Part shown: one piece after another, positions 25,484 through 62,689 of the stretch
Position numbering within the stretch: the first letter of the stretch is position 1
Layout: every line of letters starts with the position of its first letter
Source of the DNA: Capniomyces stellatus
Lineage: Eukaryota > Kickxellomycota > Harpellomycetes > Harpellales > Legeriomycetaceae
Direction of reading: 5' to 3'
Assembly: GCA_001661515.1 (NCBI GenBank)
Contig: LUVW01000039.1
Coordinates: 148,478 to 212,477, forward strand
Length of the DNA stretch: 64,000 nt
Position numbers and translations under genes: made by a program
The notes under the pieces: model-generated
Databases searched by the model: none
What the model saw: only the letters and a program-made list of their open reading frames with translations
What the model was told of the DNA's origin: nothing

Positions 25484-26551
25484 TCAAAAGCTGTGTGCGT
25501 TATCGGTTCTTGTTGGTACAAGTATCTTTTCGCGACTGCCTGAATCGCTGGATGAACCGTTGGTAGCTTGTATCGCTAGTGATCTTGTTCTAGCGGACCC
25601 ACGATATATTCTTATTTTGGGTTTTTTTGTTTTTGTTACTTCATCCACTAGTTTTGATGCTACTTTCTCTTCAGAATCTGGAGGTGGTTTGTTTTGATTA
25701 AGAATGGAGCTAATGTTTTTTATTAATACGCCATTCCCGTAATCAATAAAAATTCTTGTGCTAGTTTCAGGAGATTTTGTTGTGGTTCTTTTGCCATTTG
25801 GTATATTTATATCTGTAGGCAACGCGCTCTCTGTAGATATGCTATTCGCATTTGCCTGCTGAGTTGTTGAAAAGGCCAGTGTTGAACCTGGTTGGGTCGA
25901 TGTTTGTCTTAGCATTGTTGTTGACATTAGCTTTGTTGTTGATGTTAGCTTTATTGTTGACTTTGTTGTCTGTGCGGGTGCGGGTGTTGGTGTTGGTGCG
26001 GGCACGGGTCCTAGGTCTACGGTTTTTGTTGGGAGTTTGATGGTTACAATGCTTGGTGCGTTTATTTGTGGTCTATTATTGTTGATAAATGAATTTAGCA
26101 GATCTTCCATTTTAGGTGCTTCAAAGTCAAAATCTACTCGGCCCAACCCAGCATCGCCAAGTTTGTATGAGACTGTGGTCGCTATTTGAAACCCAGCTGC
26201 TCTATTCTTGCCATTAACGTTGTTTTTTAAATTATCGCTGTCAACTTGTGGCACAATCGGTGTGTTTTCGTCGGGCTTTCTGGTTTTCGTACCGCTTTGT
26301 TCTATAACCGTGTTTTTGTTTATTTTCTTTTTCAGGGTCCTTGCTTCATAAACTGTTTTGCTACTCTTCAATTTGCTTTTGCTCTTAGCCTTACTTAAAG
26401 TGTAAATTGCATCGTTATCCGTTTCCAGCTTACTTTTCTTGGTGTATGGCTTTTGACTTAAGGCTAGCTTTGTGTTTTGTCTGTAGCTGCTAGTTATCAC
26501 GGCGCTTATAACAAGCGATAGTAATGCTATGATCTGAATTATATACTTCAT
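25484..26551 (-). CDS. Predicted secreted Ser/Thr-rich protein of unknown function
   Basis: This is an intronless 355-residue ORF with a true ATG. Residues 1-20 (MKYIIQIIALLSLVISAVIT) form a good signal peptide. A Lys/Ser-rich region follows, then a short ordered-looking block (YKLGDAGLGRVDFDFEAPKM). After that comes a Pro/Thr-rich spacer (PAPTPTPAPAQTT) with repeated KLTSTTKLMSTT-like peptides, and a basic C-terminus. There is no C-terminal hydrophobic segment for a GPI anchor. The Thr/Ser-rich segment is a likely O-mannosylation target, an inference consistent with the Pmt4 encoded in this window. I do not recognise a family. A cell-wall-associated or secreted role is possible. Confidence 0.65.
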   Translation of the reverse strand: MKYIIQIIALLSLVISAVITSSYRQNTKLALSQKPYTKKSKLETDNDAIYTLSKAKSKSKLKSSKTVYEARTLKKKINKNTVIEQSGTKTRKPDENTPIVPQVDSDNLKNNVNGKNRAAGFQIATTVSYKLGDAGLGRVDFDFEAPKMEDLLNSFINNNRPQINAPSIVTIKLPTKTVDLGPVPAPTPTPAPAQTTKSTIKLTSTTKLMSTTMLRQTSTQPGSTLAFSTTQQANANSISTESALPTDINIPNGKRTTTKSPETSTRIFIDYGNGVLIKNISSILNQNKPPPDSEEKVASKLVDEVTKTKKPKIRIYRGSARTRSLAIQATNGSSSDSGSREKILVPTRTDNAHSF

Positions 26552-46624: not shown

Positions 46625-48982
46625 ATGAAGGGACAAACCGAGGAAAGAGCAGGATCACCGCGCAAGCGTCGTCCAAGTTTGAAGGATGGTTCACCAGTCA
46701 AAGAGGCTTTTGACGTTTCGTCCAAGAAAATCAGAGGCAGTGGGCTTGAGTCAAAGCTTGGAGAGGGAGTGTTCAACAATCTTTCATACTATGCGTTTGG
46801 GGTAGTGGCATTGTTGTCGCTAGTGCTGAGAATGTGGAAGATCTGGTCACCAACAGAGGTGGTGTTTGATGAGGTGCATTTTGGAAAGTTTGCGAGCTAC
46901 TATCTTAGAAGAGAGTACTACTTTGACGTGCATCCACCGCTTGCAAAGATGTTATTGGCGTTGCCAGCAAAACTGGTGGGATATGACGGGACATTTTTGT
47001 TTGAAAAGATAGGACTGAGCTACATTGAGAATGGGGCGCCATACTTTGTGATGAGAGTGTTTGTTGCAATGTTTGGAGCGTCAATTCCACCACTTGTTTA
47101 CTTGATTATGGCAGAGTCAGGGTACTCGCTGGTCGTTTCGCTTGTTACAGCGTTGATGGCGGTGTTTGACAACGCGTTGGTTTTGCACAGCAGACTGATA
47201 TTGCTGGATTCAATTATGATGTTCTTTATGGTGGGGGCAGTGTACACTTACGTGTGCTTCTTCAAGCAAAGATACCAGCCTTTCACACAAAAGTGGTACG
47301 GATACATGGTGGCAACAGGAGTGATGATAGGGTGTGCAGTTTCATGCAAGATGGTTGGTCTGTTTACGATGTTTTCAATTGGAGCAGCGGTGATCTACGA
47401 TCTGTGGCGTCTGATGGATGTGCGCAGAGGGGTTACGGCTGAGGAGTTTGGCAAGCACTTTATGGCAAGAGTAGGGGGGCTGATAGTGGTTCCAATAACT
47501 GTGTACTTGAGCGTGTTTTACATTCACTTTGCGATTCTGAACAAGAGCGGATCAGGAGACGACTACCACACACCAAACTTCCAGATGCAGTTGCAGGGCA
47601 GCAAGTTGTTGGACGACACACTGCCAGTATACTTTGGAGACTCGATCAGCTTGAAGCACATTGACACAAAAGTATTCCTGAACTCACGCAGCGATGTTTA
47701 CCCACTAAAGTACTCGGACGGCAGAGTCAGCAGCAACGGACAGCAAGTAACAGGACACAAGGCAGAATCACCAGACACATTCTGGACAATTGTACCAGTG
47801 GAAAAGGACGCAGAGTTTGATGCGTTTATGGCAAGACGACAGGCAGAAGCAGAGGCAAACAGCAACGAGCAGCCATCAGCACTGGAGATCAAAAAGTACG
47901 CGCTACGCAACAAGTCTGAGGTTAGACTGATCCACAAGAACACAAATAAGGCGCTGCGAACACACGATGTTGCGTCGCCACTGACAACAACAAACATGGA
48001 GTTCACCGCGGTTGCCATTGACGATGAAAAGAACTTCAAGGACACGGTTTTCTACCTCAACATTGACCGGTCACGTGACACACCAGAAGGCCCTGAACAG
48101 GTGCGCACACTCAACAAGTACGTCCGACTGGTCAGCAAGCCACACAACGTAGCCTTGTACACCAACGCAAAGAAGCTGCCTGACTGGGGATTCTATGACC
48201 AGGAGATCAACGGGAAAAAGGACCCATTGGGCGAGGGAACTTTGTGGGTAGTCAACAGCGTGTTGGGCCGCAAGTTTGTCAAGAACGCAAACGGGATGAA
48301 GATCAAGAAAATGGGTTTCATGGCCAAGTTCAACGAGCTTCAGTCCCTGATGCTGGACCACAACGAGAAGCTGACCAAGCCCCATCCATACCAGTCCAAG
48401 CCTTTGACCTGGCCCCTGTTTGACAGAGGTGTTTCGTTCTGGACCAACAAAAAGACCAACGCCCAAATCTACTTTGTCGCCAACCCCTGGGGATGGTACT
48501 CCATTGTTGCTGGTCTGCTGGTTTTCAACGCTGTCTATCTCGCTGTTTCTATTTCCCACTACCGCCGCAACGTTGCTATTATTAGTGAAATCACCGAACG
48601 CCACCTCCTTAGAAGCGGTATGTTTTTCCAAGGCCTCTACATTCTCCACTATATTCCCTTTTTCGTAATGGGAAGAGCTCTCTTTATCCATCACTACTTG
48701 CCAAGCGTTGTCTTTGGGTACATGGTTCTTGGTGCTGTTATCCAGTTCTTCTGCTTTACTGACTACAAGTCCTATGCTATGCAAAACTGGCACACAATCC
48801 GCCAAAACATCTTGATTCTGCCCAAATCCACCAAGGCCACCGTTGCTATCGCCGTTATCATCGGCTTCCAAATCATCAACTTTATCTACTTCAGTCCCTT
48901 CGTCTATGGTCTCCCATTAACCAAGCCTGAAATCAAAGCCCGAAAGTGGGGTTCCAAGTGGGATTTCAATTTCACAAACTAA
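46625..48982 (+). CDS. PMT4: Protein O-mannosyltransferase, Pmt4/POMT1 subfamily
   Basis: This is an intronless 785-residue multi-pass ER membrane protein (yeast Pmt4 has 762). A basic cytosolic N-terminus is followed by the first membrane segment and the luminal catalytic loop VVFDEVHFGKFASYYL, with the D82-E83 acidic pair, then YYFDVHPPLAKML. VVFDEVHFG, rather than VVWDEAHFG, marks the Pmt4 subfamily, as does the central MIR region YPLKYSDGRVSSNGQQVTG. C-terminal hydrophobic segments include MGRALFIHHYLPSVVFGYMV. It transfers mannose from dolichyl-phosphate-mannose to Ser/Thr of secretory and membrane proteins; Pmt4 usually acts as a homodimer on membrane proteins. The third codon position is noticeably richer in C and G than in neighbouring genes, suggesting strong expression. 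Confidence 0.96.
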   Translation: MKGQTEERAGSPRKRRPSLKDGSPVKEAFDVSSKKIRGSGLESKLGEGVFNNLSYYAFGVVALLSLVLRMWKIWSPTEVVFDEVHFGKFASYYLRREYYFDVHPPLAKMLLALPAKLVGYDGTFLFEKIGLSYIENGAPYFVMRVFVAMFGASIPPLVYLIMAESGYSLVVSLVTALMAVFDNALVLHSRLILLDSIMMFFMVGAVYTYVCFFKQRYQPFTQKWYGYMVATGVMIGCAVSCKMVGLFTMFSIGAAVIYDLWRLMDVRRGVTAEEFGKHFMARVGGLIVVPITVYLSVFYIHFAILNKSGSGDDYHTPNFQMQLQGSKLLDDTLPVYFGDSISLKHIDTKVFLNSRSDVYPLKYSDGRVSSNGQQVTGHKAESPDTFWTIVPVEKDAEFDAFMARRQAEAEANSNEQPSALEIKKYALRNKSEVRLIHKNTNKALRTHDVASPLTTTNMEFTAVAIDDEKNFKDTVFYLNIDRSRDTPEGPEQVRTLNKYVRLVSKPHNVALYTNAKKLPDWGFYDQEINGKKDPLGEGTLWVVNSVLGRKFVKNANGMKIKKMGFMAKFNELQSLMLDHNEKLTKPHPYQSKPLTWPLFDRGVSFWTNKKTNAQIYFVANPWGWYSIVAGLLVFNAVYLAVSISHYRRNVAIISEITERHLLRSGMFFQGLYILHYIPFFVMGRALFIHHYLPSVVFGYMVLGAVIQFFCFTDYKSYAMQNWHTIRQNILILPKSTKATVAIAVIIGFQIINFIYFSPFVYGLPLTKPEIKARKWGSKWDFNFTN

Positions 48983-53114: not shown

Positions 53115-56100
53115 ATGGAAGAGAACAAGCGGATACATTTTGGTAGTCTTGAACACACATTAGCCAAAGAAATCCAGAATGAAGCAGTAAGAAAAAATAT
53201 ATATATCCTTCAAAATATTGTATTAATTGATAGAGTATAGCAAACAATCCAATATACTATATACAGGTTAAATATAAAAAAAAATTGGAGGAGGGGGAGG
53301 GAGGGAAAGGTGTTCAGTAACTCGTGTTAATTAGCTGGTTAAAGATTAAGATAAATATAAACATAAATGATATAAAATAGGAAAAAGAGGACGATGGAAT
53401 CGATATCGATGATCTAAGTAAGCTAGAAAGAAAAGAATAGATAAGAAAAGGTCAAACAGACAGTAATAAGTTGAATGGATAATAAAACCGATGAATAAAC
53501 ACGTAATAGGCGAGGAAGGAAGTGATGTAGATTTGACAGAGAATCAATTGAGATCAAAAGAGGAACACGAAGAGATACTAAAAGAGTTTGAAAGAAAAGA
53601 GGCCGCAAGGAAACTAGCGGTTCCAACCGATGATGGCAGGGTTCGATTAAAGCTGAGAGAGTATGGGGAGCCGATATGTTTGTTTGGAGAGGGGGTAAGT
53701 GCGGAGGTTTTGTGAATAGATTGACAGTTAAGTGGATGCGAATTGCAATTTGGTTCGAGTTGGTATGTAGGCGGGTAAATAAGTTGTCTGAATAAATATA
53801 TGACTATTTTAGCCTGGGGAAAGACGTGATAGGTTGCGGTATATAATGTCTAGGCGGCAGTTTGAAGAAGGCGGAGAGAAAGCGGTAGAATCAGACAGCT
53901 CATCAAGCGTAAATAATGATTAAATATGGCTATATTATACCAAAATGAACAAAGGAATATATATATGATATGGTATGGGTATTTATTTGGTTGGTTGGAT
54001 TGGTTGGGTGGTAATAGGATAGCGAGGGCGAACAAAAGGAAGAGTTTTATACCGAGGGACCTCTGGAGCTATTAGGTGCTCGAAGAAAGATGGCGCTGTT
54101 TTCGCTGCCTAGGTAAGATCCCAGAATATGTGATTTATTTGGCTTAGTTATGCTGTAAGGAAGGCAAGAAAAAAGAAAAAAAAAAGGGGGGGGGGCGATG
54201 GCTGGGTGGCTGGCTAAGATGCGTTCAAAATTGTTAAAGTTAAAACAAAATGGTATGATTAGGGCTAAAGAAAGAATCGATAGGCAAAAAAAGTATTTAA
54301 ACACGCCCATGACCACCATCAAGAACCAGAGACAGGCGTACTATAGTACATTTCAGGTAAGTATAGCTAAAGTAGAGAGTTAAATATCAGAATCTGTATA
54401 GTCGAGGCGTTTTACAATGGGTGGGGGGGGGGGGGGATTAAAGGGTCTTGTATACGTGATTTGGCTTGTAGAATGTGGGGCTGTACTCGTCGGAATTTGG
54501 CGATCAAAGACCGATTTCAAGTGTCCGATTTTCACCAAACTCGCAAATATTGGCTACGGGATCGTGGTCAGGGTTAGTCAAGTTATGGGAAACCGCAACG
54601 TCAAAGCCATTGGCTACATTGAGAGGTAATTTTCAAAAGTAATTCAAAGTATACAGTGTGATTAAAGCACAAATAAGTTTGAAGAGAAGAAAAACTGTTT
54701 TGTGTCTAGTTGAAGCTTTTTAGTTTTATTTTCTTTAACATTTTATTTTGGTTGGGTTGTTTAATATAGGACACAATGACCGAGTTGGCGGAATCTCGTT
54801 TCACCCGCAATCGACTCGAGGACTTGATAGAAGTGCAGCAAACATTGCCACAGGAGGTGCCGACAGCTTGATCCACTTATGGTCTTTGGAAAGGTAAATA
54901 TGCGGATCAAAGCTGTGTTTCAAGTGGGAAAAGATACCGGGGTTTTATTATTGTTAGTATTGTATTATTTATTGATGGGGTTTTGGAACACAAGCTTAAT
55001 TTAGGTCTTTGAAATATTAACATTTTTTTGTTGATAGCCAAACACCAATATCTACCCTGGAAGGTCATGTTGCTAGAGTTGTACACGTAGACCATCACCC
55101 ATCTGGAGACTACTTGGCCAGTGCAAGGTAATTAATATGGTGTCAAGTAAAGCCAGACCACACACTGGATGTTGGATTTGCCAACCTCAACGTTTTTATT
55201 TATTTATTTATTTGTTTGTTATTGTGTGATATGTCGTAGCTACGATGGAAGTTGGAGACTGTGGGATTTGGAAACTGCCAAGGAGCTGTGTCTACAAGAG
55301 GGCCATTCTAAGCAGGTCCATGTAGTTAAATTTCAAAACGACGGTTCATTGCTTGCCTCGGCGTAAGTTAAATGTCAAATGTCAATTATTACATATACTA
55401 TTACTGGTTATAATTACTATTATTGCCATTACTATTATTACTATTGCTATTACTGCTATTTTTTGAATCTCAATGGATTTGTCGATAAATATGTTGCTTG
55501 CGTGCTTGGGTAACTGGGCAAATAGAGGGCTGGATTCTATTGGCCGGGTTTGGGATATTAGAACTGGGAGATCCATCATGACTTTACAGGGTCACGTACG
55601 TGAGATTTTTGCTTTGGATTGGGCACCTAATGGGTAAGTTTGATTGTTTTTACAAGTACTAAGGCTATATAACTTGGGGTTTTAATTGAATCAATCTCTT
55701 CATAATTGATATGAAACTTTATTTATTTCACCCGTTTTCCCTTTTCCTTTTTCCTTTTTCCCATTTTCCTTTTCTTTTTTTTTTGTTTTACTTTAACATT
55801 TTCAATTATAAAACCTCTTAAATTTATAGTTATCAAGTCGCAACAGGCGGTGCTGATAATTCAGTGAGAGTGTTTGACTTGAGAGCTTTACAGCAGATCC
55901 ATATCATTCCTGCTCACAAATCTACCGTGTCTCAAATCAAGTACGTTTGCGGTGACGATAGTACTAGTGGTCTAAACAATGCCCTCGTTTCTAGTTCCTT
56001 TGATGGTTCTACCAAAATTTGGAGCTCAAATGATTATAAGTTAATCAAAGTTCTTGAAGGGCATGAAGGCAAAGTAATGGGTGTTGATGTTTCACAAGGT

Positions 56101-56284
56101 AGCTGTTATTATTGTTATTATTGTTATTATTGTTATTATTGTTATTATTGTTATTATTGTTATTAAATTATCTGTCAGATCGCTGGTATTAATGCTGTTG
56201 TCATTTTCTTCCCTTTTAATAGACAACTCTTTTATTTCAACCTGTGGTTATGATAAGACTTTCAAACTGTACTCCAGCGAATAA
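53115..56284 (+). CDS. PRP4: U4/U6 snRNP protein Prp4 (PRPF4), 13 exons
   Basis: Exons are 53115-53186, 53381-53417, 53510-53694, 53813-53908, 54018-54112, 54263-54356, 54472-54625, 54770-54893, 55038-55127, 55240-55362, 55526-55633, 55830-56098 and 56223-56284. They join to 1,509 nt (502 residues; yeast 465, human 522). All 12 introns end in TAG and all junctions keep the frame. The N-terminal half has the splicing-factor motif region [20 protein letters not shown] then ERRDRLRYI, followed by [20 protein letters not shown]. The C-terminal half has seven WD40 blades, including [27 protein letters not shown] and [13 protein letters not shown]. Prp4 binds Prp3 in the U4/U6 di-snRNP. It converges on the cysteine-repeat gene. 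Confidence 0.95.
54423..54436. repeat. Poly-G homopolymer in a PRP4 intron
   Basis: An uninterrupted G run of about 14 bases lies in the intron before exon 7, with a smaller G run near 54187 in the preceding intron. Such runs stand out in AT-rich DNA. Confidence 0.8.
56104..56164. repeat. Tandem repeat of TTATTATTG units in the last PRP4 intron
   Basis: About six to seven perfect 9-base units fill the first half of the 124-base intron, immediately after the donor site. The run leaves the reading frame open as a CYY repeat, so the ORF appears to continue past the exon. Confidence 0.8.
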
Positions 56285-56589
56285 AGTCGGGAAATCATAA
56301 AATTGTTTATATATATATCTTAAAGCCACGATTTACCTTTTACCTTTGCTTGTTAATAACTAAAATGAAGTCGAAAAATGTGATCTAGAGCAATAGTTTA
56401 AATCAGCTGATGGCACCTCTTAATTTTATTGTTAGATGATTTATTTCGTAAAGTAAATTGAAAACTAAAGTATATAATGAAATAGTAAAGCATTAAAGTA
56501 ATCAAAACAGTGATGTGGACCGTGTAACTCTGGTTACATGATTAGTTTTTAGGCTATTGTTTTTTTTTTTTTTTTTTTTTTTNNNNNNN

Positions 56590-56622
<33 letters not shown>

Positions 56623-56632: not shown

Positions 56633-59600
56633 CTAAAGTTTCTTTGGGCAGAACTTTTTAATAAGCTTTTTGTTTGACGTGACCCTTCCTTCAACGCATA
56701 ACACATTCTTGGTTTCTTGTATCGGTATGAGTTCTGCCTTTTTAACAGTAAGATCGCGGCAGTATTGTTCAGCTGCACCCCTCTTTCTGCTTTTCTTAGC
56801 CGACTTGCACAGTCTTGAGTATATCTCGTCAATAGGCATATCATAGTTGTCTGTTTTGTCTTTAACGCAGTATTTACTTATTTTGGGCCCGTCCTTGCTT
56901 TTTCTTGCCAATGCACAAACCACTCTATAAATGTCCTTTAGCCACAGCCTATATTGTGTTATTTTGTCGTTTGGAAAACAGTGCTTTTTTATTGCCGCGG
57001 CGTTTTTGCTAGTCATGGCTTGTTTGCAAAGTCTGTTGGCATTGGCGTTGGCGTTGGAATTGAGTTTAACATTGGAGTTGGATTTGGATTTGGTCTTTGC
57101 CTTGGCCTTCGCTTTGGCCTTTGTTTTAAGGGGTTGTTTAGGTGCCGCTTTTTTAGGCGGCTCAAGCTTGGTTATTTTCTGACAGTGGTTTTTAATAAAA
57201 ACTTGATTTTTTCTAATTCGAGCCTCTTCGCAAAGCAGCTTCCCGATCTCTTCAAGTGGAGCTATATCCCGAGTAGCAACTGCCAGATTTTTACAGTACT
57301 GAGAGACTGCCAACTTATCGTTGGCTGCCTTGGCCTTTCTGCAGAGATTCTTATAAATTTCCACAACTGGCGGCATATTTTTTGGGTTATTGGCTACACC
57401 AACACAGTATTTGGCCATTTTTGTTGTGTCTTTGCTGCTTGTAGCTAAAGCACACAGACCGCGATAGATATCTTTTAATTGGTGAGGAGACCTGGCGTTA
57501 TTATTTTCTGCGTGACAGTATTTTTTCATATTTTTATTATTGCCATTGGCTTTGGACTTGCCGCAGAGAATTTCGTATATATTATTGTAAGCAGATGTGC
57601 CCAAACCACGAGGTTTACCGCAATACGTTTTATTGCAGTACATTTTGACTCTGCATTTATCGCCTGCAATCTCTGCTTCTTCGCACAATATTCTGTACAC
57701 CACTTCCGCTGGAGGTAGATTGGCAGTTAAATTGGGCTTTCCACAAAAGTACTTGGTGTTTGCCGCATCAGTCGCACTTCTTGCTTTTTTGCACAGTTTT
57801 TTGAATATGTAATTTATCTCTGGTATCGGGTTATGCGGGATAATTTCGTTTATACAGTACTTTTTAATCTGGTTGGTGTTGCTACAGCTCCTTGCTAGTG
57901 CACACATAACTCTATTTGTATCTCCAAGCGGTGGTGATGTTTTGTGATTAGTTGGGCAGTACTTGTACATCATGGCATCATCTTTCTCTGCCTTTGCCTT
58001 TTTGCATGGCTTTTCGTACACGTCTTTAATCAGGGGTTTAGGGAATGGTTCACAAAACTTTTTTTTTTGACTTTGATTGTTGTGAGCCTGTGCAACTTTG
58101 CACAAAACCCGAGTAATTTCCTTAATCGAGGGGTACTTGTCCCTTGGTTTTTGCAGATCCCGACAATACTGACCAATTAGACCAGCTCTTTCAGTATCTT
58201 TAGCCTCTTTACACAGTTTCCTATACGCATCCTCCATAGAATTTGACGGAATCTTATCCTTTGTAGTGTCATCGCAGTGCAACCTAGTTTTTTTAACATC
58301 TTCGCTCAATCTTGCTAGCTGACAAAGGATTTTGTTCACCTTTATAACCGGTAGCTTGGGTGTGCTTGGTGTAGCGCAGTATTTTATAATTGACACTGGC
58401 TCCTTTTCTTTTTTTGCCAATTTGCAAAGCGAGTCGTAAATAAACTCGGGAAGCTTAACTTTACCAACACAGTACTTTTTTGCATTTACTTTGTCCTTGT
58501 TGATTATCGCTTCTTCACAAAGAACTCTGCTGGTGCTATCTAATGATGGTATATTCACTGCAACATTGCTAATTTCTTTACAATATGTTTCAATCCCCGT
58601 TTTATCCTTGTTGTTTTTAGAGATTCTGCAAAGTTTTTCATATATATGTTCAATTGGCGGCAAAGGCTTGCTGGGGTCCAGTGTTTTTGGGCAGTATCTC
58701 GAAAGAAACTTTTTTTTGTTTGATGCTCTTGCAAGAGCACAAAGTACTCGGTTGATTTGGATAGTCGGCGGCTTGATTGATATGCTGGCCATACAGTATT
58801 TGGATTTATTTTGCTGGTTGTTTTGGATATTGGCTTTTCTGCACAGTCTTCGATATATATTTTCGTTGTCTGGCTTGATTTTATCTGTGCAGTAAAGCTC
58901 AACACTTTTTGTATCACCTTTGATCTTTGCTTCCTCACAAAGGATCTTGATCAGATCCTCAAGCGAGGGAACTACCAACTCTGGATTAGTTATATCTATA
59001 CAGTATGAATCAATTTCTTTTTTGTTATTTTTAACTTTGGCTTTTCTACATAGCTCACTGTATATCTTTTCTACTGGAGGGAGTGCATCTTTTTGGTCGA
59101 TCTGTCCTGAGCAGTATTTTGCAATGTTCCTTTGGTTTTTTGTAGACTTTGCAATCGCACACATTATCTTGTTTACCATGATCACAGGCGGTTTGATACC
59201 TATACTACTGGAGCAGTACCTTCTTACCCCAACAGCGTCATTTTTTCTCCTAGCACTTTTACACATTTCCCTATACAAATCGCCGCTTGGCTTTTCGGAA
59301 ATTTTACCACAATACAATTTCTTCCCTACAATATCTTTCATTAGTTTAGACTCCAAACATAGCACTTCAACAACCTCATCTTTTGGCGGCAGATCCTCTT
59401 CATACTCGGTCAAGTCTTTGCAATACATATTAATCATTAATTTTGTGTTTTCCTTTAGCGCCTTTTTGCACAGCCTGTTATAAATTGATTCCAGTTTTAG
59501 GTGTTTATTTACATCTTTCAGGCCAGTGCAGTAGGATACCACTTTTTCATCATCACCGCTTGATCTTGCTAGTCCACAAAGTATCCTATACACTGCTTTA

Positions 59601-61159
59601 ATCTCCGGGAATGGTTTCTTTGTATTTGATTCAGGAGTACAGTATTTTTTGATTTCTTTCACGTTTTTTGTTTTCTTGACCTCGTCACATTTGTTTCCAT
59701 ATATGTCGCTGAGCTCAGTACTAGTTACTGACTGAATGCGACCTTTAGAGCAGTGTTTTGCAGTATATGCACTTGCCCCATTTATCATTGCTTCTTTACA
59801 TAATACTGCTATTACCTCTTTTAATGGTGGAATTTCGGTCTGCGCTTTACTCAAGTCCCGGCAATACTCTTTAGAATCTGTAGCATTTTCTAGTTTATTA
59901 GCTGCTCTGCACATAATTTTGTAAATTTGAGTCAACGGTGGAACTATTATAGAAAGGAAGTTCAGCCCACTGCAATATTTAGATACATCGCTCTTATTAT
60001 TACTTTTACGTGCCAAGCCACATAAAACCCTGTATACATCTCGCACTGGAAGTGGCTCATTAGTTGGAGGCAAATCGGTATGGCAATATCTCTTTGTTTT
60101 GACACTATTCTTTTCCTTTTTGGCCTGGCTGCACAGCGATTTGTAAATATCTTCAAACATGGTCTGGTCATCTTTTTTACAATAAGCCTTTATTCTTTTG
60201 TCGTTTTCATTCATTTTGGCATCCGCGCACAAAACTTTTACAATCTCTGCAGTTCCAGGCAGCTTACTCAATGGCGTTTTTAAATTTTGACAGTATATTG
60301 AAGCTTCACTTTGTGTGTTTCGATCCTTCAACCCGGCACACAGGAACTTGTATATCTTCACAACAGGCAATAACTCCTTTTTTTGGTTTTTGACCTCTTT
60401 GCAGTAGCGTCCAATATAAATAGCATTGTTGCTTATTTTAGACAAACTACACATTACTCGTGCGGTTTCATATTTAGATACTTTTACATTAGGCGTTTTA
60501 CGCACTTTTCTACCGCAATATCTACACATCCCTTTCTTATTACCACTGGCCTTTGACTCCGCGCACAGCACATTGTATATTTCTATTATTGGAGGAAGTC
60601 TCTTTTCGTGCCGCCTGATGTTTCTGCAATACCTTCTAGTATTGTATTTAGTATTGCCTTTCTTAGAGTTTGTGCAAAGCGTTTTCATCAACGCAGCAAT
60701 GTTCCTGATGGGATTTCTGTTCTTTGAATCACAATATTTTGCAACACACTTTTTATTGCTGCTTGCTTTTCCAAAAGCACACAGCACCCGGCTATACTCG
60801 GCAACGCTCAGAGTTGGCCTTCTAGGTTTGTGAACGTGTATACAGTAGTCCCTTACCATTCTTTGATTGTAAGTTTTTAGTCCAATTGAACACATTCTTC
60901 TGTATATGTTTAGGTAGCCTACACAGTTAAAGTTTTGGTAATTCCCGCATCTAATCTTCCTTTTAGATCTTTCCTTATTGAGCAGCATACCCTGTCTTCT
61001 GTTTGTTATATGATCGCTTTCCTCAAGTTTTTTTAAACAGTAATTCCCCTGGCTAATAAATAGACTCGATCTAGCAATGTCTGATGCAGGGCTTGTACCC
61101 TCTTTAGAACATACCGCACCAACCATCAGCACTACAAGAGTACAAATGCGAGTAAACAT
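56633..61159 (-). CDS. Giant secreted cysteine-repeat protein: 39 C-x15-C units in a four-unit cycle
   Basis: This is an intronless 1,508-residue ORF. Residues 1-18 form a signal peptide (ICTLVVLMVGAVCS). After ~70 residues with a few extra cysteines, residues 90-1504 hold 39 units in which two cysteines are separated by exactly 15 residues, roughly [LM]-C-x2-A-x11-Y-C. Typical units are CALARKSKDGPKISKYC and CRKAKAANDKLAVSQYC. The linkers (about 16-22 residues) usually contain P-P/PLPP and IY before the next LC. Units fall into four recurring classes (A, ALAR/GLAR; B, RKAK/KKA; C, EEA; D, remainder) in the order D-A-B-C, repeated almost throughout. A Lys/Asn/Ser low-complexity insert (KAKAKAKAK, NANANAN) precedes unit 36. 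The protein is strongly basic. I do not recognise the family. An extended disulfide-stabilised helical array at the cell surface is my inference. Confidence 0.9.
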   Translation of the reverse strand: MFTRICTLVVLMVGAVCSKEGTSPASDIARSSLFISQGNYCLKKLEESDHITNRRQGMLLNKERSKRKIRCGNYQNFNCVGYLNIYRRMCSIGLKTYNQRMVRDYCIHVHKPRRPTLSVAEYSRVLCAFGKASSNKKCVAKYCDSKNRNPIRNIAALMKTLCTNSKKGNTKYNTRRYCRNIRRHEKRLPPIIEIYNVLCAESKASGNKKGMCRYCGRKVRKTPNVKVSKYETARVMCSLSKISNNAIYIGRYCKEVKNQKKELLPVVKIYKFLCAGLKDRNTQSEASIYCQNLKTPLSKLPGTAEIVKVLCADAKMNENDKRIKAYCKKDDQTMFEDIYKSLCSQAKKEKNSVKTKRYCHTDLPPTNEPLPVRDVYRVLCGLARKSNNKSDVSKYCSGLNFLSIIVPPLTQIYKIMCRAANKLENATDSKEYCRDLSKAQTEIPPLKEVIAVLCKEAMINGASAYTAKHCSKGRIQSVTSTELSDIYGNKCDEVKKTKNVKEIKKYCTPESNTKKPFPEIKAVYRILCGLARSSGDDEKVVSYCTGLKDVNKHLKLESIYNRLCKKALKENTKLMINMYCKDLTEYEEDLPPKDEVVEVLCLESKLMKDIVGKKLYCGKISEKPSGDLYREMCKSARRKNDAVGVRRYCSSSIGIKPPVIMVNKIMCAIAKSTKNQRNIAKYCSGQIDQKDALPPVEKIYSELCRKAKVKNNKKEIDSYCIDITNPELVVPSLEDLIKILCEEAKIKGDTKSVELYCTDKIKPDNENIYRRLCRKANIQNNQQNKSKYCMASISIKPPTIQINRVLCALARASNKKKFLSRYCPKTLDPSKPLPPIEHIYEKLCRISKNNKDKTGIETYCKEISNVAVNIPSLDSTSRVLCEEAIINKDKVNAKKYCVGKVKLPEFIYDSLCKLAKKEKEPVSIIKYCATPSTPKLPVIKVNKILCQLARLSEDVKKTRLHCDDTTKDKIPSNSMEDAYRKLCKEAKDTERAGLIGQYCRDLQKPRDKYPSIKEITRVLCKVAQAHNNQSQKKKFCEPFPKPLIKDVYEKPCKKAKAEKDDAMMYKYCPTNHKTSPPLGDTNRVMCALARSCSNTNQIKKYCINEIIPHNPIPEINYIFKKLCKKARSATDAANTKYFCGKPNLTANLPPAEVVYRILCEEAEIAGDKCRVKMYCNKTYCGKPRGLGTSAYNNIYEILCGKSKANGNNKNMKKYCHAENNNARSPHQLKDIYRGLCALATSSKDTTKMAKYCVGVANNPKNMPPVVEIYKNLCRKAKAANDKLAVSQYCKNLAVATRDIAPLEEIGKLLCEEARIRKNQVFIKNHCQKITKLEPPKKAAPKQPLKTKAKAKAKAKTKSKSNSNVKLNSNANANANRLCKQAMTSKNAAAIKKHCFPNDKITQYRLWLKDIYRVVCALARKSKDGPKISKYCVKDKTDNYDMPIDEIYSRLCKSAKKSRKRGAAEQYCRDLTVKKAELIPIQETKNVLCVEGRVTSNKKLIKKFCPKKL
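56648..60892 (-). repeat. Protein-level tandem array: 10 blocks of cysteine-repeat units
   Basis: The array runs from Cys90 to Cys1504. By class, units 1-4 read D-A-B-C, units 5-7 read A-B-C with no D, and units 8-39 form eight complete D-A-B-C blocks of about 145 residues. Blocks have diverged too far for obvious DNA identity, so the array is old. B-to-C linkers characteristically read CxDL then a proline and end VLC. D-to-A linkers are often shorter and read IKPP then INRVLC or VNKIMC. Confidence 0.8.
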
Positions 61160-62095: not shown

Positions 62096-62689
62096 TTATA
62101 CAGGAACTATTTCAAATTGTTCAGTGCAGTGTTTCATCATCCCATCCTGATCTTGATCCTCCATAGCCTTTTTGCAAAGTTGTTCATCATTTCTGCAGTG
62201 TAGCGCTATCAACGCCTCATCATTATCATCACGAGCTTTTGTGCAATTTTCCTTCACATATTCAACTCTACAGTGTTGAGTAATGTATTCCACGTCCTTG
62301 TTTTCTATCGCTATTTTACATTTTTCTACATTCGGATCAATGATGGATGTGCAGTACTTGTCAATCATTTTTTTATAGTTGCAGCTCTTAGCGGCTTGGC
62401 AAAGTTCGTCTTTGCACAAACCCTTACAGTAAATCTTAATCGACTCTGTATTAGAAAATTTCAAGGCTTCAATGAATTTTTCAAGTTTGTTTGGTGGTTT
62501 TTGAGGACAGTATTTAGCTATCATTTTTGCAATTCCAGAAATTAGTGCTGCTCTGCATCTCTTCCTGTCATTTAATATACCACATTCCTTCTTAATCAGC
62601 ACTTTGTCGCCTGACTTCATGGCCTCGCTACATTTTTTAACTTTGTTACTTGGATTGGTAATACAATATTTCCTAATCAGGCGATTCAT
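62096..62689 (-). CDS. Smaller C-x15-C repeat protein, relative of the giant repeat gene (5' end uncertain)
   Basis: A 197-residue ORF from ATG 62689 has about eight units with the same C-x15-C spacing (CRAALISGIAKMIAKYC, CKIAIENKDVEYITQHC, CKKAMEDQDQDGMMKHC). The linkers are far shorter than in the giant neighbour, and the C-terminal units are acidic rather than basic. In the fourth unit the first cysteine is replaced by Phe, and an extra pair appears in CKGLCKDELC. No signal peptide is present. However, the frame stays open upstream to a TAG acceptor near 62720 (VQFYQEADDM reads through), so a 5' exon carrying a signal sequence is probable; I could not find it. It could also be a 5'-truncated pseudogene. 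Function is unknown. Confidence 0.7.
   Translation of the reverse strand: MNRLIRKYCITNPSNKVKKCSEAMKSGDKVLIKKECGILNDRKRCRAALISGIAKMIAKYCPQKPPNKLEKFIEALKFSNTESIKIYCKGLCKDELCQAAKSCNYKKMIDKYCTSIIDPNVEKCKIAIENKDVEYITQHCRVEYVKENCTKARDDNDEALIALHCRNDEQLCKKAMEDQDQDGMMKHCTEQFEIVPV

Follow-up and report, generated by a model that had tools for sequence, protein, structure and literature searches.

Capniomyces stellatus encodes a likely secreted protein of 39 C-x15-C units whose four-unit programme is kept largely unit by unit between two genera of gut fungi

The stonefly hindgut fungus Capniomyces stellatus (24.8 Mb, 72 scaffolds, 37.8% GC; PMC4974312 and the part of PMC5954228 consulted) encodes a 1,508-residue protein, here called F1, in which 39 units, each a pair of cysteines separated by 15 residues (C-x15-C), follow a four-unit programme. 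Two genera share this programme, for the most part one unit at a time, and at least four genes besides F1, one of them inside the window, bear the same unit. In my judgement there is about an even chance that F1 represents a family, not described before, of secreted arrays of disulfide-stapled helical hairpins with a structural or adhesive role at the fungal surface or in the holdfast.

Results

The window, meaning the whole 64,000-nucleotide stretch analysed, has a GC content of 37.5% and is fungal, encoding a Zn2Cys6 regulator, a protein O-mannosyltransferase (PMT), a P-type ATPase and others. F1 is the open reading frame at 56633..61159 on the minus strand, and its strand, length and 39 units are as the initial annotation described them. 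An apparent signal peptide spans about residues 1-19 (61103..61159, minus strand), with a best 15-residue hydropathy of 2.12 at residue 5; beyond residue 40 the same measure reaches at most 1.61, and no 19-residue stretch averages above 1.32 on the Kyte-Doolittle scale. The signal peptide was called from sequence and hydropathy, its extent being approximate, and as no later stretch is as hydrophobic as the N-terminus, F1 is likely secreted, in keeping with the earlier prediction. The protein is strongly basic (net charge +158), its relatives less so (+72 in P0001, the Zancudomyces culisetae relative described below, and +9 in F2, a neighbouring gene).

The PMT gene of the window looks complete (46625-48982, plus strand); some 7.7 kb separate it from the end of F1, and it is probably a chance neighbour. 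Also on the plus strand, at 55864-56166, a WD40 frame passes at its end into an uninterrupted (TGTTATTAT)n array that is read as (CYY)n. On the minus strand, an ORF of 355 residues at 25484-26551 is rich in Thr and Ser, starts like a signal peptide and matches nothing in Pfam. Twelve bases past the stop codon of F1 (TAG), on its strand, begins a run of about 61 A interrupted by a 7-N gap (56560-56620). A/T runs of at least 15 occur elsewhere in the DNA examined, none of them as long, and the 3' flanks of F2-F5 hold no such poly-A tract. The reading of F1 as a retrocopy, which this tract prompted, was considered, as was that of an antifreeze-like protein of a winter host.

A signal peptide, many basic residues and repeated units are also what one would expect of a polyprotein from which Kex2-like proteases release numerous small peptides with one disulfide each. 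KEPs (Kex2-processed repeat proteins) are fungal, secreted and built of repeated units, and are defined by recurrent dibasic KR sites between the repeats, whereas F1 has no recurrent KR or RR sites between its units. It contains five KR against 12.2 expected from its composition, and eight RR, and no KR or RR position relative to the first cysteine is shared by more than three of the 39 units (30 KK and 12 RK pairs were only counted). Kex2-processed repeat proteins are described as widespread in fungi in the part of PMC7329392 consulted. The shortage of KR and the scattered positions of both pairs nevertheless fail to support such a polyprotein here, and I consider it very unlikely.

The C-x15-C pattern occurs 43 times in F1, against a mean of 5.0 and a maximum of 15 in 5,000 shuffles of the protein. 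Four of the matches are linkers, of the C-to-D type defined below, that are themselves 15 residues long, which leaves 39 units. These take up 78 of the 88 cysteines. Of the other ten, the signal peptide holds two and the N-terminal region three, while five are extras, and no leftover pair resembles a unit with another spacing. The earlier claim that every unit keeps 15 residues between its cysteines holds for 39 of 39, but partly by definition, since the units were picked by that very pattern. The first cysteine is encoded by TGT in 20 units and TGC in 19, the second by TGT in 19 and TGC in 20. From one first cysteine to the next the distance is 37 residues in 22 of 38 steps, within a range of 31-68, and is not constant. 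With the cysteines at 0 and +16, the hydrophobic columns of the unit stand at -8, -5, -1, +3 and +12, an arrangement that fits one buried face per helix, and the pattern common to units of the family reads C-x2-A-x4-[N/D]-x3-I-x-K-Y-C.

AlphaFold predicted a helical hairpin, made of a long and a short helix, in all 12 units modelled, at a mean pLDDT of 72.1 in the best model and 53.9 in the worst; the overall shape is of low confidence (pTM 0.39), and the model of F2 alone is poor (58.5). A Foldseek structure search with the pTM 0.39 model returned no convincing match and no firm Sel1 or solenoid fold, with TPR and PPR chains among the weak ranks. Of the disulfide-locked helical superhelix that had been suggested, the hairpin per unit is thus predicted, but a reliable superhelix and a structural counterpart did not emerge. 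Each unit would be a helix-turn-helix with the first cysteine near the middle of helix 1, an Asn or Asp at the turn, and a helix 2 ending in Tyr-Cys.

It is plausible that a disulfide forms within each hairpin, and the two cysteines of a unit would most likely staple it in this way. They might instead bind metal or form bonds between units or molecules. In the Hcp proteins HcpB and HcpC the bond ties the last part of a repeat to the first part of the following one (PMC3851747, part consulted), whereas the constant pair of F1 sits within the predicted helix-turn-helix, and bonds between molecules have been considered for the motifs of CagY (PMC2581425, part consulted). However, the 16-residue step is kept while linkers range from 14 to 51 residues, for which pairing within the unit is the simplest reading, and no extra ligand pattern was noticed. 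I regard metal binding or bonding between units or molecules as improbable.

Unit similarity at a lag of four averages 50.4 in F1, against 38.4 (sd 2.0) when the order of the units is shuffled, and none of 20,000 shuffles reached that value. Similarity is likewise elevated at lags 8, 12 and 16, which 53, 1 and 13 of 20,000 shuffles equalled, but not at lags 1-3 and 5-7. The lag-4 score marks eight D-A-B-C blocks, units 8-39, at residues 331-1504 (56648..60169, minus strand). Leave-one-out assignment returned 27 of these 32 units to their class; four misses sent D to B and one sent C to A, D and B being the least distinct classes. On the 56-unit tree described below, units cluster by class as had been anticipated, with 11 label changes against at least 24 in 2,000 shuffles, and the earlier description of D-A-B-C eight times in a row stands. 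Before the blocks, units 1-7 (residues 78-327; 60179..60928, minus strand) form an irregular start, whose best order by class scores is A-A-B-C-A-B-C with the first C nearly tied; this fits the imperfect start lacking one D that had been proposed, but unit 1 is only weakly A. Within units 8-39 the A-to-B and B-to-C linkers are 19-20 residues long and the D-to-A linkers 17 or 20. The C-to-D linkers measure 20, 15, 15, 14, 15, 23 and 51 residues, the last being a Lys/Ala/Asn-rich spacer before the final block (residues 1327-1377; 57029..57181, minus strand).

A search of about 5.8 billion proteins, subject to its limits on length and words, gave a single protein relative of F1, AX774_g2045 of the gut fungus Zancudomyces culisetae (P0001), an unnamed hypothetical protein of 1,242 residues (E 1.8e-166, 35% identity, 63% of F1 covered). 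It has 28 units; in 27 of them the spacer is exactly 15 residues long, and in the remaining unit, which was added by eye, it is one residue shorter. P0001 units 5-28 face F1 units 8-31 in the same four-unit order, the collinear register scoring 62.4 against 51.8 and 47.4 one block off. The collinear F1 block is the best match for five of the six P0001 blocks, the exception being block z4, for which F1 block 3 scores 259 against 243 for collinear block 4; seen from F1, the collinear P0001 block is best for four of six. In a tree of 56 F1 and P0001 units, 10 of 16 W-Z sister pairs are collinear and six are not, where 5,000 within-class permutations gave at most eight collinear pairs.

Linker lengths tell much the same. 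The C-to-D linkers are 20, 15, 15, 14 and 15 in F1 against 22, 15, 15, 14 and 15 in P0001, and the D-to-A linkers 20, 20, 17, 17, 17 and 17 against 20, 22, 17, 17, 17 and 17, while two A-to-B linkers are clearly unlike (19 against 22, 20 against 16). P0001 differs from F1 in ending at the match of unit 31, so that the last eight F1 units are absent, and in having its first units dispersed among longer non-repeat stretches. By sequence, P0001 appears ortholog-like to F1. Because the units are largely collinear and most linker lengths are shared, the F1 array is old and frozen rather than recently expanded; an array of about 24 units thus already stood in a common ancestor and has been kept largely one by one.

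The DNA of F1 agrees. Units four apart are on average 47% identical in DNA (maximum 61%), and uncorrected differences per site within classes are near saturation at synonymous sites (pS 0.79-0.83, pN 0.43-0.47), which together rule out recent tandem expansion. The four-unit block that the initial annotation took as the unit of duplication is real, but its amplification is ancient, most of the array being common with Z. culisetae. The same figures bear on the suspicion that F1 is a collapsed or chimeric assembly. The genome was built from Illumina libraries (PMC4974312), and in one sister gene, F3, a 53-N gap interrupts repeats that are almost the same; against this, the repeats of F1 are too dissimilar to be confused, its frame is open throughout, and 24 of its units face those of another genus. 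An artefact is, on this sequence evidence, the least probable reading of all, and only marginally credible.

Searching the genome (24.51 Mb in 59 contigs) brought the family to at least F1-F5, gene counts of this kind being lower bounds. F2, just upstream of F1 (62096..62689, minus strand), is a 197-residue ORF whose six C-x15-C units are joined by short linkers; it shares 46% identity with the last 194 residues of F3. F3, which came to light when the genome was searched with F2 and the DNA was read, lies on the same contig, on the minus strand, 6.0 kb from F2, its start 4.7 kb beyond the window (contig 33, 217141-222067; L022 4742-9668). It has a hydrophobic N-terminus, a Cys/Pro-rich N-terminal stretch and at least 58 units, 14 and 44 in two frames around the 53-N gap, this count being a lower bound since the gap within the array leaves the length unfixed. 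F4 (303 codons, six units) and F5 (267 codons, three units) are neighbours on the minus strand of contig 8, the pair occupying L024 4816-5724 and 7023-7823; they are 83% identical over their alignment, are separated by a 459-N gap, and both begin with a hydrophobic N-terminus and a Cys/Pro-rich stretch. On the plus strand of contig 31, a frame of 101 codons (L025 4505-4807) holds three C-x15-C matches and a stop inside the match, and may be a relic of the family. Searches of the genome with F1, part of F1, F3 and F4 yielded no further gene; a weak match on contig 42 (E 0.03) is to the N-terminal and Pro-rich part of F4.

Ordinary sequence searches with F1 and with F2, F3 or F4 do not retrieve one another. 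A position matrix of F1 and P0001 units, in contrast, recognises those of F3 (z 6.5, 46 distinct units) and those of F2, F4 and F5 (z 7.0, 15 units), and the reverse tests recognise F1 (z 6.9) and the Zancudomyces protein (z 6.8); in each case none of 20,000 column permutations did as well. F1-F5 and P0001 accordingly share not only C-x15-C but also a common choice of residues at the 15 positions between the cysteines. There is some small probability that the likeness between F1 and F2-F5 arose by convergence, amphipathic hairpins having come to resemble one another.

F3 has its own period. The distance from one first cysteine to the next mostly switches between 24 and 25 residues, which gives a two-unit period, and most steps are 24-27. 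With 55 of 58 units typed, type a shows pS 0.77 against pN 0.32 and type b pS 0.69 against pN 0.19. Near the gap two of the lag-2 pairs have the same DNA sequence; in the rest of the array a high pS goes with a low pN, which rules out recent expansion of F3 as a whole. Apart from the recently duplicated pairs near the gap, it is thus mainly selection at the protein level that keeps F3 uniform, and F1 and F3 are both conserved at the protein level.

No named family in the libraries searched covers these proteins. Pfam, NCBIfam and PDB gave no convincing family match, and the known repeat domain that could have claimed the units was not found in profile and structure searches of the three; one Pfam model that just reached the cut-off on F3 was judged spurious. 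Among the Pfam families listed at E <= 10 for F1, F2, both parts of F3, F4, F5 and P0001 there is no TPR, PPR or ankyrin profile, nor any Sel1 profile (PF08238, as numbered in the part of PMC3851747 consulted). The literature searched by title or abstract holds no description of a C-x15-C hairpin family, the C. stellatus genome note (PMC4974312) does not mention one, and neither do the portions checked of PMC5954228 and of PMC12611240, the latter on a long-read assembly of Z. culisetae and its transcriptome; in the main text of these two papers no word begins with 'cysteine'. The family is narrowly distributed, as far as found by sequence search.

Discussion

Secreted, disulfide-linked helical repeats are a known kind of protein; what looks new is the C-x15-C family, along with the spacing of its cysteines and the two super-periods. 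Close to F1 in kind are the Helicobacter cysteine-rich (Hcp) proteins. Their disulfide-bridged Sel1-like repeats are secreted alpha/alpha units, about 36 residues long and regularly disulfide-bonded (parts consulted of PMC2581425 and PMC3851747), as the units of F1 may be, but Hcp has far fewer repeats. Repeat region 2 of CagY from Helicobacter pylori is a long extracellular array of helical modules with fixed cysteines and a variable module number, described as a very stable filament sheath. It is bacterial, has six submotifs with cysteines in four and Lys/Glu multiplets, and is set apart from F1 by that description (PMC2581425, part consulted). Its modules, thought to sheathe a surface filament, show, as an analogy and not as a demonstrated relationship, that such a design can work.

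TPR, PPR and ankyrin proteins are likewise made of helix-turn-helix units, and the A-x-x-x-G-N turn of F3 presumably recalls ankyrin. TPR units are 34 residues long and ankyrin units 33, whereas the F1 family carries a fixed cysteine pair and the F3 steps are shorter for the most part. Solenoids of this sort commonly bind partners, and the main rival of a structural role is that F1, with the same architecture, is a soluble secreted scaffold or effector, an alpha-solenoid binding gut mucins, the peritrophic matrix, host factors or microbes. A four-unit order frozen unit by unit between two genera suggests position-specific surfaces, and solenoids do appear among the weak Foldseek ranks. The nearly uniform F3 is, however, what a material would look like, the Cys/Pro-rich stretches of F3-F5 resemble those of wall or matrix proteins, and AlphaFold gave no confident solenoid. 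A soluble scaffold is a possibility to be taken seriously, if a tentative one.

The reading that I prefer is that of extracellular structural or adhesive material. Dozens of stapled hairpins in a row would form a long, basic, very stable rod or string; the F1 chain would be secreted, and the family would most likely act as structural or adhesive material outside the cell, with three candidate places: the surface of the wall, the secreted holdfast by which these fungi attach in the guts of insects, and spore appendages. The Cys/Pro-rich stretches of the sister proteins F3-F5 point to extracellular material and therefore to a structural or adhesive role at the surface, with the holdfast a candidate. 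The basic charge of F1 and the hydrophobic N-termini of F1, F3, F4, F5 and P0001 (by hydropathy) argue the same way. Against it, the F2 ORF shows no signal peptide in its N-terminal sequence or hydropathy, F1 itself has no Cys/Pro-rich stretch of the F3-F5 kind, charge is lower in P0001 and F2, and the hairpin model is of middling confidence, that of F2 alone being poor.

A bolder proposal, rather doubtful as things stand, is that the frozen four-unit F1 and the near-uniform two-unit F3 form a new class of extracellular structural protein confined to one branch of insect-gut fungi and together build its holdfast or spore appendages. The literature searched contains no description of the protein make-up of either structure. 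A further point against the preferred reading is that Smittium and Furculomyces, which are also Harpellales, yielded no relative; as far as these searches could reach, this makes a general holdfast protein less likely.

Descriptions of secreted helical-repeat proteins in which a cysteine pair recurs regularly are rare, and the printed examples found are bacterial. Here one unit is put to two uses in one genome, which makes a clean case for freezing versus homogeneity in repeat proteins. If the holdfast reading is true, a simple stapled scaffold for protein design would also be on offer, and if these are holdfast proteins, the attachment of insect-gut fungi would be opened to molecular study.
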